Positions 4,844 through 7,732 of a stretch of 14,014 nucleotides of DNA are shown here, one piece after another; within the stretch, counting starts at the first letter, position 1, and each line of letters opens with the position of its first letter. The position numbers and the translations under genes were made by a program. Below the pieces are notes generated by a model, which saw only the letters and a list, made by a program, of their open reading frames with translations, was not told where the DNA came from and did not search any database. Origin of the DNA: Microtetraspora glauca (GTDB lineage: Bacteria; Actinomycetota; Actinomycetes; Streptomycetales; Streptomycetaceae); the NCBI GenBank assembly GCA_000721275.1, contig JOFO01000089.1:1-14014 (forward strand), given 5' to 3'.

Positions 4844-4903
4844 CTACCCGGCGGCCAACCGGCCCCGCCTTTCGGGCCCGGCTACCCGGCGGCCACCCGG
4901 CCG
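4844..4903. repeat. Imperfect 21-bp direct repeat at the ABC-F 3' end
   Basis: CTACCCGGCGGCCA occurs at 4844-4857 and again at 4882-4895. The similarity extends to 21 bp with one mismatch, with a 38-bp period. The second copy encodes the last codons and stop of the ABC-F gene. The first is a shifted copy downstream of the stop, probably a small local duplication. Confidence 0.5.
4859..4881. terminator. Bidirectional hairpin between convergent methyltransferase and ABC-F genes
   Basis: Arms CCGGCCCCG (4859-4867) and CGGGCCCGG (4873-4881) pair with a single C-C mismatch around the loop CCTTT. The hairpin lies immediately after the ABC-F stop (minus strand) and 41 nt after the methyltransferase stop (plus strand). 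It can serve both transcripts. Confidence 0.55.
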
Positions 4904-6513
4904 CCGGCCAGCTCCAGGCGGCGGCCGGCGAAGCGGGCGCGGAACTCCCGGTCGTGCGAGACGGCGACGACCGCGCCCGGGAACGCGGCCACCGCCTCCT
5001 CCAGCTCCTCCACCAGCGCGGGCGCCAGGTGGTTCGTCGGCTCGTCCAGCACCAGCAGATCGGCCGGACGCGAGACCAGCAGGGCCAGTTCGAGCCGCCT
5101 CCGCTGCCCGGCCGACAGCGCGGCGACCGGCACCGCCAGGTCCTCCTCCCGCAGCAGCCCCAGCGCCAGCAGCTCCCCGGCGTGCTCCTCCGGCGTCCCC
5201 GGCCGGCCCTCCGCCCACACCGCCAGCGCCGGCCGGCGGGTGGGGGAGTGCGGCAGCTCCTGCGCGAGGTGGCCGACCCGGCCGGTCCGGCGCACCACCC
5301 CGGCGTCCGGCGCCAGTTCGCCCGCGAGCAGCCGCAACAGGGTCGTCTTCCCGGCCCCGTTGGGCCCCGACACCAGCAGCCGCTCCCCGGGTCCGATCCG
5401 CAGCGCGTCCACCGCCAGCCGGTCGCCGACGACCACGTCCGCCAGCTCCACCAGCGGCTCCTCCGACGGCTCCGCGTCCGCCTCCGCGAACCGGCCGCCG
5501 AAGCGCAGCGGCTCCGGCGGCGCCGCCACCGGCTCCCGCAGCAGCTCCTCCAGCCGGCGGCGGGCCGTCCGCACCTGCCCGGACAGCTTGTTCTCGCTGG
5601 ACCGGCGGTGCTTGCCGAAGCCCTGGCCCGGGTCCTTCCCGGTCACCGCGAGCCGCCGGCCCGCCGCCGCGACCAGCTCCTCGGTCCGGGCGACCTCGTC
5701 GCGCCACTCCTGGTGCTCCTGCTCCCGGCGGCGCCGCTCGGCGGCCTTCGCCGCCCGGTAGCCGGCCCAGCCGTCCCCGTACCGCAGCACGGTCCGCCGG
5801 TCCCGGTCGACCTCCAGGACGGTCGTGGCGAAACCGCCGAGGAACGCCCGGTCGTGGGTGACGACCAGCGCGGTGCCCCGGTGGGCGGAGAGCCGGGCCC
5901 GCAGCCAGTCGACGGCGTCGCGGTCGAGGTGGTTCGTCGGCTCGTCGAGCAGCAGCAGCTCGGCCCCGGACGAGAGCACGCAGGCGAGCGCGAGCCGCGC
6001 CTGCTCGCCGCCGGACAGCGAGGCGAGCGGCCGGTCGGGGGTGAGGTGCCCGAGACCGAGGGCGTTCAGGGCGGCGGCGGTCTCGGCGTCGGCTGTGTAG
6101 CCGCCGCGCTCCTCGAAGCGGTCGAGGAGTTCGCCGTACGCGGCGAGCTCGTCCGGCCCCGCCGTGCCGAGGCCCGCCTCGGCCTCCCGCAACTCCGCCT
6201 CCAGCGCGCGGAGTTCGGCGAGGGCGAGATCGACGGCGTGCTGGACGGTGTCGTCGGGGCCGACCGGGTACGTCTCCGGCAGCGTCTGGGCGAGCCGGGC
6301 GACGGAGCCCGGGAAGGCGACCACGACCTCGCCCTCGTCCGGGGCCAGCGCCCCGTCGAGCAGCCGGAGCAGGGTGGACTTGCCGGAGCCGTTCTCGCCG
6401 ACGACGACGGCCTTCTCGCCGGGCCGGACGGTGAACGACACCTGGTCGAGGACGCGGCGGTCACCGAGGACGACGCCGACGTGACGGAGGGAGAGCTGGG
6501 CGCGAGCGCGCAT
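4882..6513 (-). CDS. ABC-F ATPase, ribosome-protection / antibiotic-resistance type
   Basis: This 543-aa protein has two ABC domains and no membrane domain, the ABC-F layout. ABC1 has Walker A GENGSGKST (39-47), signature LSGGEQ (166-171), and Walker B plus catalytic Glu LLLLDEP (187-192, Glu191). The interdomain linker (about 245-345) carries a long charged helical pair and a tip GKDPGQGFGKHRRSS (292-306), the part that reaches the peptidyl-transferase region in resistance ABC-Fs. ABC2 has GPNGAGKT (383-390), LSAGQ (466-470) and LLVLDEP (486-492, Glu491). Such proteins dislodge ribosome-targeting antibiotics from the exit site. An Etta-like housekeeping role is the alternative, but the leader peptide upstream favours inducible resistance. 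The ATG at 6513 is chosen for the Shine-Dalgarno AGAGGA (6525-6520) and immediate homology. The in-frame ATG at 6570 lies in a leader hairpin loop. Confidence 0.9.
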   Translation of the reverse strand: MRARAQLSLRHVGVVLGDRRVLDQVSFTVRPGEKAVVVGENGSGKSTLLRLLDGALAPDEGEVVVAFPGSVARLAQTLPETYPVGPDDTVQHAVDLALAELRALEAELREAEAGLGTAGPDELAAYGELLDRFEERGGYTADAETAAALNALGLGHLTPDRPLASLSGGEQARLALACVLSSGAELLLLDEPTNHLDRDAVDWLRARLSAHRGTALVVTHDRAFLGGFATTVLEVDRDRRTVLRYGDGWAGYRAAKAAERRRREQEHQEWRDEVARTEELVAAAGRRLAVTGKDPGQGFGKHRRSSENKLSGQVRTARRRLEELLREPVAAPPEPLRFGGRFAEADAEPSEEPLVELADVVVGDRLAVDALRIGPGERLLVSGPNGAGKTTLLRLLAGELAPDAGVVRRTGRVGHLAQELPHSPTRRPALAVWAEGRPGTPEEHAGELLALGLLREEDLAVPVAALSAGQRRRLELALLVSRPADLLVLDEPTNHLAPALVEELEEAVAAFPGAVVAVSHDREFRARFAGRRLELAGGRVAAG

Positions 6514-6518
6514 GGGGA

Positions 6519-6603
6519 TTCCTCTGCGGGACGGGGCGGAAAAGGGCACGCGAAACCGGCCCACGGCCATGAGCGGCCGGGCCGGACCCCGGAATCAGAG
6601 GAA
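6519..6603 (-). promoter_or_regulatory. Attenuator: leader ORF end complementary to ABC-F Shine-Dalgarno
   Basis: On the minus strand the last bases of the leader ORF, TTCCTCTG (6603-6596), are perfectly complementary to CAGAGGAA (6526-6519), which contains the ABC-F Shine-Dalgarno. Just inside, CGGGG (6591-6587) pairs with CCCCG (6536-6532). These two helices enclose the 6556-6585 hairpin and would sequester the ribosome-binding site. A ribosome stalled near the end of the leader ORF would mask TTCCTCTG and free the site. The complementarities are seen; the switch is inferred. Confidence 0.6.
6556..6585 (-). terminator. Leader hairpin, possible transcription attenuator
   Basis: Minus-strand arms are CCGGCCC plus GGCC (6585-6575) and GGCC plus GGGCCGG (6568-6556, with a 2-nt GT bulge), around loop GCTCAT. 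This gives an 11-bp stem followed directly by TTTCG and, 9 nt later, TTTT. It may act as a premature terminator in the ABC-F leader or simply stabilise the Shine-Dalgarno-sequestering fold. Confidence 0.5.
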
Positions 6604-6627
6604 GAAGTAGTAGTGGTACGCACCCAT
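6595..6627 (-). CDS. Leader peptide MGAYHYYFFL upstream of ABC-F
   Basis: This is a 10-codon ORF, ATG at 6627 and TGA at 6597-6595, rich in aromatic residues (Tyr4, Tyr6, Tyr7, Phe8, Phe9). A good promoter lies such that the ATG should be the first transcribed codon, so it would be translated from a leaderless mRNA. It ends 81 nt before the ABC-F start. Short ORFs of this kind precede erm, msr and vga resistance genes and act as drug-sensing stall peptides. Its last codons overlap the segment complementary to the ABC-F Shine-Dalgarno. I do not recognise this exact peptide from a described system. Confidence 0.6.
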   Translation of the reverse strand: MGAYHYYFFL

Positions 6628-6663
6628 GCCACCGAGGCTAACAGCAGCCCCGGACGCTGTCGC
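6628..6663 (-). promoter_or_regulatory. Promoter of the ABC-F leader transcript
   Basis: Minus-strand -35 GCGACA (6663-6658) and -10 TAGCCT (6640-6635) are separated by 17 bp, and the -10 is 7 nt before the leader-ORF ATG. An AAA lies 5 nt upstream of the -35 (6671-6669), loosely reminiscent of the AT-rich patch of WhiB7/WblC-activated promoters, which is speculative. A short inverted repeat, ACAGC-N10-GCTGT (6641-6660), fills the spacer and touches the -35. Confidence 0.6.
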
Positions 6664-6700
6664 GGGACTTTCGACCCGCGGGCGGGAGGTGCCGACACGT

Positions 6701-6715
6701 TTGCCGTTCCGGCAA
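6701..6715. promoter_or_regulatory. Palindrome TTGCCG-N3-CGGCAA, candidate operator
   Basis: The perfect 6-bp inverted repeat TTGCCGTTCCGGCAA lies in the divergent region between the ABC-F leader promoter and the His-rich methyltransferase gene. A further TTGCCG half-site (6751-6756) abuts the methyltransferase ATG. A second inverted repeat, CGCGGG-N8-CCCGCG (6661-6680), overlaps the leader -35. No regulator can be assigned. Confidence 0.4.
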
Positions 6716-6757
6716 CTTCTCTCGCGTTTTCCGTGAGGGACGGCGCACTCTTGCCGT

Positions 6758-7732
6758 ATGACCCAGCATCGTGACGCCCACGCGGGCACCCACGCGCCGC
6801 ACGCCCACGGCGCCCCCACCCATGCCCCCTCCCACACCTCCGGCCACGCCCACGCCCACGCGCACGGCGCCCACGCGCACGGCGACGGGGAAGCGCTCGA
6901 CTGGGGGCGGCTCGCGCCGCTCCTGGAACGCCAGGCCGAGGTCGCCGGCCCCGCCTACCGCGAGGCCGCCGCATGGCTCGGCACGCTCGTGCCGGCGAGC
7001 GGCGTGCGCCGGCTCCTCGACATCGGCAGCGGCCCCGGCGTCATCACCGCGCTCCTCGCCGAGGCGTTCCCGTACGCCGAGGCCGTCGCCGTCGACGGCA
7101 CCCCCGAACTCCTGGAACGGGCCCGCGCCCGCGCCGAGGACCACGGCCTCGGCCGCCGGGTCGCCACCCTCCGCGCCGAACTCCCCGAGGAGACCGGTGC
7201 GCTCGGCGAGGCCGACCTGGTGTGGGCCGGCAACTCGCTGCACCACCTCGGCGACCAGCGGGCCGCGATCGCGGACTTCGCGAAGCTGCTGCGGCCCGGC
7301 GGCCTGATCGCGCTCGTCGAGGGCGGGCTGCCGCTGCGGCACCTGCCCCGGGACATCGGCATCGGCCGGCCGGGCCTGGAGGCGCGTCTCGACGCCGAGC
7401 ACGCCGACTGGTTCGCCCGGATGCGCGCCGAGCTGCCCGGAGCCGTCCGCGAACCGGACGACTGGCGCGCCCTGTTCACCGCCGCGGGCCTCACCCCGGC
7501 CGGCACCCGCACCTTCCTCGTGGACGTGCCCGCGCCGGTCCCGCAGGTCGTCCGCGAGCTGGCCGTCCGCCACTTCGAGCGGCTCCGCGAAGGCATGGGC
7601 GAACACCTGGGCGCCGAGGACCGCGCGGTCCTCGACCGGCTCCTCGACCCGGCCGACGAGCAGTCGCTGCACCGCCGGACGGACCTCTTCCACCTGACGG
7701 CCCACACGGTCCACACCGCCCGCAAGGGCTGA
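6758..7732 (+). CDS. SAM-dependent methyltransferase with His-rich N-terminus
   Basis: This 324-aa protein carries 13 histidines in its first 41 residues, as HAH and similar repeats. The extension is probably disordered and metal-binding. A class I methyltransferase domain follows: LLDIGSGPG (86-94) is motif I, AVAVDG is motif II, and AGNSLHHLGD (about 161-170) and LLRPGGLIALVEGG cover motifs IV and V. The C-terminal half (about 210-324) is specific to this protein, with no domain recognised. The substrate is unknown. The ATG at 6758 lacks a well-spaced Shine-Dalgarno (GAGGGA at 6735-6740 is 17 nt away), so the mRNA may be leaderless or weakly translated. It is divergent from the ABC-F leader, and its transcript converges on the lectin gene. 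Confidence 0.85.
   Translation: MTQHRDAHAGTHAPHAHGAPTHAPSHTSGHAHAHAHGAHAHGDGEALDWGRLAPLLERQAEVAGPAYREAAAWLGTLVPASGVRRLLDIGSGPGVITALLAEAFPYAEAVAVDGTPELLERARARAEDHGLGRRVATLRAELPEETGALGEADLVWAGNSLHHLGDQRAAIADFAKLLRPGGLIALVEGGLPLRHLPRDIGIGRPGLEARLDAEHADWFARMRAELPGAVREPDDWRALFTAAGLTPAGTRTFLVDVPAPVPQVVRELAVRHFERLREGMGEHLGAEDRAVLDRLLDPADEQSLHRRTDLFHLTAHTVHTARKG

Follow-up and report, generated by a model that had tools for sequence, protein, structure and literature searches.

A conserved aromatic mini-ORF on an apparently leaderless transcript upstream of Streptomyces ABC-F genes is a probable translational attenuator

It is established that ABC-F genes can be controlled through attenuation by short upstream open reading frames (uORFs), and the published descriptions include examples from Streptomyces (PMC12421871, PMC8546547, PMC10201436). 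In Streptomyces coelicolor, the ARE5 genes tiaA and are5sc have 5′UTRs of 194 and 232 bp with uORFs for the peptides MVGDDDISG and MLV, and lincosamides, streptogramin A and pleuromutilins are described as stalling ribosomes at the uORF start codon (PMC12421871). A transcriptional reporter of tiaA was reported to be insensitive to the drugs, while the translational reporter responded (PMC12421871). The locus of this study was found in the window, which is the whole stretch of 14,014 nucleotides that was analysed, and it resembles these two as a Streptomyces antibiotic-resistance ABC-F gene with a 5′ uORF (PMC12421871). It differs from them in that the leader ORF is aromatic and apparently translated from a leaderless mRNA, and opening of the Shine-Dalgarno (SD) sequence in the window is predicted to need a stall from about codon 5–6 rather than at the start codon.

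The nearest known analogue of the peptide appears to be MsrDL (MYLIFM), the leader of msrD. According to the report on this peptide, erythromycin blocks its termination, and the next-to-last residue F5 clashes with the GGQ motif of the release factor (PMC10314930). MsrDL and the leader described here are both very short hydrophobic or aromatic leaders with Phe in the next-to-last position, MsrDL belonging to a macrolide ABC-F gene (PMC10314930). However, the target of MsrDL is described as a Rho-independent terminator and its stop codon is UAA (PMC10314930), whereas the putative target here is the SD sequence, the stop is UGA in 62 of 62 leaders and the peptides have 7–10 residues; the likeness is one of sequence. 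The leader of cplR is similar as an ABC-F uORF (MR[I/M]) with a stem hiding the main SD, but it is from Clostridia, has three codons and is accompanied by a terminator (PMC10201436). Leaderless conserved uORFs have also been described in mycobacteria, such as the Cys-rich ORF before cysA2, for which a response to cysteine or redox state was proposed (PMC4633059). These uORFs resemble our leader as short leaderless ORFs at the 5′ end of actinobacterial mRNAs with a proposed attenuation function, but the passages on them concern cysteine and redox and make no connection with ABC-F genes or drugs (PMC4633059).

The leader peptide itself was not found in the titles, abstract starts and passages that were searched in the open-access PMC literature. 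The original prediction had considered it as possibly a new drug-sensing leader; for the peptide, this agrees with the literature search, but the general kind, uORF attenuation of an ABC-F gene, was already known. In the cat-86/cmlA-type attenuators, a ribosome stalled on a short leader opens the single hairpin that hides the SD. The same principle of SD release is proposed here, while the peptides and the genes differ.

The window comes from an assembly of 7.47 Mb in 254 contigs. On its minus strand, a 10-codon ORF at 6627–6595 (ATGGGTGCGTACCACTACTACTTCTTCCTCTGA, from ATG to TGA) encodes MGAYHYYFFL*, as had been predicted, and precedes an ABC-F gene at 4882–6513 on the same strand, which encodes 543 amino acids and a stop (coding 6513–4885 without the stop). 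The ORF listing also gives an alternative in-frame ATG of this gene at 6570, and the ATG at 6513 is the one with an SD sequence. No Rfam family matched in the window at the gathering score. On the plus strand, a divergent gene at 6758–7732 encodes a methyltransferase-like protein whose N-terminus is very rich in His, and the gene starts about 130 nt from the leader.

Based on profile matches and the tree, the window ABC-F protein is placed in a clade that is sister to the TlrC/CarA/OleB/SrmB-type proteins, and the named proteins closest to it are from Streptomyces; the clade includes a protein listed under the name of S. venezuelae (P0095). Its score with the NF000171 model (TlrC/CarA/OleB/SrmB, ARE4) was 644.6 bits, below the cut-off of 800, and six further members of the aromatic-leader clade also stayed under 800 (650.7–733.6 bits), so that none of the members scored reaches this class. 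Among five more distant proteins, two from the MGSL clade described below reached the cut-off (844.9 and 927.3 bits) and three did not (678.4–755.6 bits). With NF000355 (ribosomal-protection ABC-F, cut-off 380 bits), the window protein scored 371.8, five of six other clade members 382.5–406, and the sixth, P0025, 366.8.

We compared 63 loci, the window counted, each encoding an ABC-F protein with 63% or more identity to the window protein. The original prediction had proposed an alignment of orthologues as a check, and in its peptide part this alignment supported the leader: an aromatic mini-ORF of 7, 8 or 10 codons was found upstream of the ABC-F gene in 62 of the 63 Streptomyces loci. In the sole exception, L047, the ABC-F aligns only from residue 19, and the leader was absent from the 450 nt examined. 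The initial criterion, used for 55 of the 63 loci, accepted any mini-ORF with at least three F/Y/W/H residues and did not require Phe before the last residue; 54 of these 55 had Phe there without selection, and adding Phe to the criterion later lost no locus. The leaders have 7 (n = 22), 8 (n = 28) or 10 residues (n = 12) and comprise 42 distinct peptides, such as MGSYYFFL, MAFLFFV and MGSYKHYFFL. The next-to-last residue is Phe and the stop is TGA in all 62, while the last residue is L in 31, R in 18, V in 10 and P in 3. From residue 4 to residue −3, 87% of the positions are F/Y/W/H vs. 6.6% in the ABC-F proteins, and a given position may hold F, Y, H, L or W depending on the locus. Leader length changed seven times on the tree, and the frame from start to stop was intact each time. 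In L012 and L017, an apparent ACG was seen by eye in place of ATG at the usual ABC-F start, which may have moved.

The leader is restricted to one clade. A mini-ORF ending in Phe-X-stop was found in 0 of 35 more distant ABC-F loci (53–58% identical, L063–L097), drawn from the 95 listed matches below 63% identity; some mini-ORF with at least three F/Y/W/H residues occurred in 7 of the 35, none of them with this ending. The carriers form one clade with an SH-aLRT of 99 against 16 of the 35 distant loci, and in a rooted tree that included 26 of the 62 carriers its support was 100/99. A DNA pattern of the leader end gave 31 matches in 392 Streptomyces genomes, compared with 5 for the reversed pattern, and 30 of the 31 were located upstream of an ABC-F gene 60–100% identical to that of the window, the other one lying at a contig end. 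A clade member was listed in at least 55 of 199 Streptomyces genomes, one of them without the leader; this is a lower bound, since G034 and G066 at first gave only more distant ABC-Fs, yet carry matches to the pattern. At strict cut-offs, no clade member was detected outside Streptomyces, which was 1 of 17 genera in one search and 1 of 36 in another. A search of genome contigs for related loci returned mostly more distant ABC-Fs, and the clade accounts for 3 of the 80 loci retained.

In the window, the −10-like box TAGCCT (6635–6640, minus strand) is located 7 nt before the leader ATG, with a weak possible −35 element, GCGACA (6658–6663, minus strand), recognised by eye 17 nt from the box. A generic sigma-70 scan did not report this TAGCCT box. 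Among the 62 leaders, a TANNNT hexamer precedes the start codon by 6 nt in 33 loci and by 7 nt in 26, which makes 59, and within 2–39 nt before the leader TANNNT occurs in only three other places. Such a spacing would be expected of a transcript that begins exactly with the leader start codon. Only 4 of 62 loci have an SD-like sequence in front of the leader, or 6 with a wider list of motifs, vs. 61 of 62 for the ABC-F gene with the same wider list. The leader ORF therefore probably lacks a 5′UTR and is translated as a leaderless mRNA. This apparent leaderless start goes beyond the original prediction, as do the clade-wide occurrence of the element and the ability of the leader 5′ end to pair with the start region of the ABC-F gene at many loci.

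The 3′ end of the leader in the window, TTCCTCTG at 6603–6596 within the last codons and the stop, is an exact 8-nt complement of CAGAGGAA at 6526–6519, which carries the SD just upstream of the ABC-F ATG. The predicted pair probability is 0.88–1.00, and CAGAGGAA is paired with the leader in the predicted folds. The second helix, CGGGGT (6591–6586) with GCCCCG (6537–6532), is nested inside the first one in the predicted folds of the window, so both helices of the original prediction were recovered. The 161-nt region folds at −73.7 kcal/mol vs. a mean of −65.95 for shuffled sequences (z −1.92; 7 of 200 shuffles equally low). The partner of the leader 5′ end in the window differs between two folds, being the start region in one and codons inside the ABC-F gene in the other. 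Taken alone, the 8-nt match of the window is only mildly surprising, because Phe and Leu codons are rich in pyrimidines and the SD is rich in purines. A complement of at least 8 nt to the 30-nt SD region was present in 141 of 20,000 shuffled leaders (0.7%) and in 681 of 20,000 random-codon ORFs (3.4%), and when the window peptide was recoded synonymously, 38% of the recodings paired as well or better at the 3′ end and a fraction of 0.25 at the 5′ end. The weight therefore rests on the comparison across loci.

Across the 62 loci, leader codon choice leans towards pairing. At the anti-SD position, Phe is encoded by TTT in 24 of 62 leaders, compared with 1 of 81 Phe codons at other leader positions and 1.6% of those in the ABC-F genes. 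For Gly, the leaders use GGT in 27 of 27 cases vs. 8% in the ABC-F genes. With the peptide fixed, the 3′ ends paired with the SD region at −9.80 kcal/mol, compared with −8.44 after recoding (real better in 43 of 62), and the 5′ ends paired with the region from the SD to the start at −8.09 vs. −7.02 (real better in 44 of 62). The stronger end differs by clade, being the 3′ end in most MGSYYFFL-type and the 5′ end in MAFLFFV-type leaders. When partners were swapped among loci, a comparison that ignores kinship, 0 of 5000 swaps were as good as the real pairs at either end. The choice of TTT or TTC agreed with the SD partner in 25 of 30 loci (21 TTT-A, 4 TTC-G) and disagreed in 5 (Fisher p 0.016, uncorrected for kinship), while a tree-corrected covariation test of this one pair gave a median p of 1 and was underpowered in independent pairs. 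In partition-function folding, SD–leader pairing exceeded 0.5 in 52 of 62 loci, with a mean of 0.78 vs. 0.61 after recoding; it was 0.5 or less in the other 10, and in L181 it was wholly absent from the predicted folds. Conservation of the helices, which the original prediction had expected to appear as compensatory changes, is thus supported for the SD helix by folding, recoding and swaps, with the covariation test underpowered, and the second helix was followed in the window only. Part of the constraint on Phe and Leu could stem from pairing and not from the peptide.

From the conserved ORF, its linkage to the ABC-F gene throughout the clade, the fixed −10 spacing, the pairing-biased codons and the predicted SD sequestration, we consider it likely that the leader acts as a translational attenuator of a ribosome-protecting ABC-F gene, in which leader codons hide the SD and a late stall frees it. 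The transcript would start at the A of the leader AUG or close to it, and the leader would be translated without an SD. When ribosomes clear the leader, its codons would pair with the ABC-F SD and translation would stay low. A ribosome stalled in the second half of the leader would cover the anti-SD, and the SD would open, allowing the ABC-F protein to be made. In a negative feedback, this protein may then clear the stalled ribosomes. Stalling is probably caused by the aromatic peptide with its invariant Phe in the next-to-last position; this Phe, followed by one amino acid and an immediate stop in 62 leaders, would fit a termination block like that of MsrDL, but pairing constrains it as well.

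The inducing drug would most probably be a macrolide or some other inhibitor of the exit tunnel or the peptidyl transferase center (PTC). We favor macrolides because, in the sister clade, both members tested reach the cut-off of the model for TlrC/CarA/OleB/SrmB, a group that is listed as conferring macrolide resistance (PMC6723617), although the scored members of the aromatic-leader clade stay below it.

In a ribosome-masking model of the window, SD pairing was 1.00 with the P site at codons 1–4, 0.85 at codon 5 and 0.61–0.70 at codons 6–10. The SD is thus shut until about codon 5–6, and the model needs a stall within the leader or at its stop. Over the 62 loci, mean SD pairing fell from 0.89 to about 0.65, so that the predicted release is partial. 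The drop was greater than 0.15 in 46 of 62 loci; in 23 of these it occurred from five codons before the last, and in 10 already at codon 1. Opening of the window SD by stalling at the start codon was considered and is unsupported, since the SD stays closed at codons 1–4, yet opening at codon 1 was predicted in those 10 of the 46 opening loci.

Among the other explanations, it might be supposed that nothing is sensed and that ribosomes on the leaderless ORF simply prevent the hairpin from closing, so that basal translation of the ABC-F gene is coupled to that of the leader and the peptide is incidental. A leader of about one ribosome footprint and a pairing bias at the codon level would agree with this. 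However, the central residues of the leader are strongly conserved and Phe is next-to-last in 62 of 62, which argues for a role of the peptide, and the known ABC-F uORFs of S. coelicolor are described as responsive to drugs (PMC12421871), so we regard this explanation as unlikely.

Another explanation is transcription attenuation of the lmrC/vmlR type, with the leader governing a premature terminator and not access to the SD. It is a common mode among the described ABC-F uORFs (PMC12421871, PMC8546547, PMC10314930), but a scan of the window for intrinsic terminators found 0 terminator-like sites in 6450–6800. Although Rho-dependent effects might play a part, we judge this explanation to be quite improbable for our locus.

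The leader core of 87% aromatic residues could also point to amino-acid attenuation. Leaders of the pheA type sense charged tRNA, and in a similar way the leader may sense charged tRNA-Phe or tRNA-Tyr so that a shortage of aromatic amino acids induces the ABC-F gene, for which an identical geometry of SD release would work. A sensor of a single tRNA would hardly tolerate the variation among F, Y, H, L and W, and the gene downstream of 30 of the 31 pattern matches is an ABC-F gene, not one of aromatic biosynthesis, the remaining match being at a contig end; this makes the explanation very unlikely. That the ORF and its complementarity arose by chance can practically be dismissed, for although the 8-nt complement alone is expected at 0.7% to 3.4%, the presence of the leader in 62 of 63 vs. 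0 of 35 loci and the fixed promoter spacing refute it.

If the attenuator reading is true, about a quarter of Streptomyces genomes, as a lower bound, would carry an undescribed peptide sensor of stalled ribosomes without a 5′UTR, and leaderless initiation would be tied to drug-inducible resistance. The 42 natural peptides with one invariant Phe are also a ready series for mapping the chains that a drug-bound ribosome cannot finish.

A second, shorter uORF was found in the sister clade. In 12 of the 35 distant loci (L067, L072, L079–L083, L086, L092 and L095–L097), a leaderless-looking uORF of four codons with the same −10 spacing is located upstream of ABC-F genes of the sister-clade TlrC/SrmB type; it reads MGSL* in 11 of them and MGTL* in L092. 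In the rooted tree, the sister group of the aromatic-leader clade consists of the MGSL carriers and L073, a locus that lacks such a uORF. When 295 genomes were searched with ATGGGTTCCCTSTGA, 19 matches were obtained, compared with 0 for the reversed control; the −10 spacing is present at 17 of the 19 (L271–L284 and L287–L289), each of these 17 being followed by an ABC-F gene 50–55% identical to that of the window. The MGSL* uORF is predicted to pair strongly with its SD region (−10.9 to −18.3), yet not better than recoded versions do (mean −14.70 vs. −14.55, 12 loci), and codon-level selection is therefore not evident at MGSL*. An 18-codon uORF of the MSYRPPHGFPVRKPAPTA type in some sister loci was set aside because of its overlap with the MGSL* uORF promoter. 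In L078, a single leaderless-looking uORF of three codons, MIF*, was seen behind TACACT, 132 nt before the ABC-F match.

We tentatively propose that leaderless uORFs with anti-SD codons may be a distinct architecture of Streptomyces ARE4-like ABC-F genes that exists in two lengths. The aromatic form of 7–10 codons might stall at or just before termination, through an MsrDL-like block of the release factor by the next-to-last Phe, while the four-codon MGSL* leader would be covered by a ribosome already at its first codon. In that case the two forms would respond to inhibition at different stages and hence to different classes of macrolides. The aromatic leader with a late stall and the four-codon leader before the sister ABC-Fs offer a clean comparison, and their drug spectra are directly testable.

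A short palindrome, GACGNNNCGTC/T, was also observed at a fixed place over the promoter, for example as AGACGCATCGTCT, and is a candidate repressor operator. It was not found in the window. Among the 62 aromatic-leader loci, 19 have it 26–28 nt before the start of the leader (L018, L024, L034 and others), with one more match at −82 in L021, and 7 of the 12 MGSL loci have it 47 nt before the start; of the 23 other distant loci, 4 have the motif within 300 nt.
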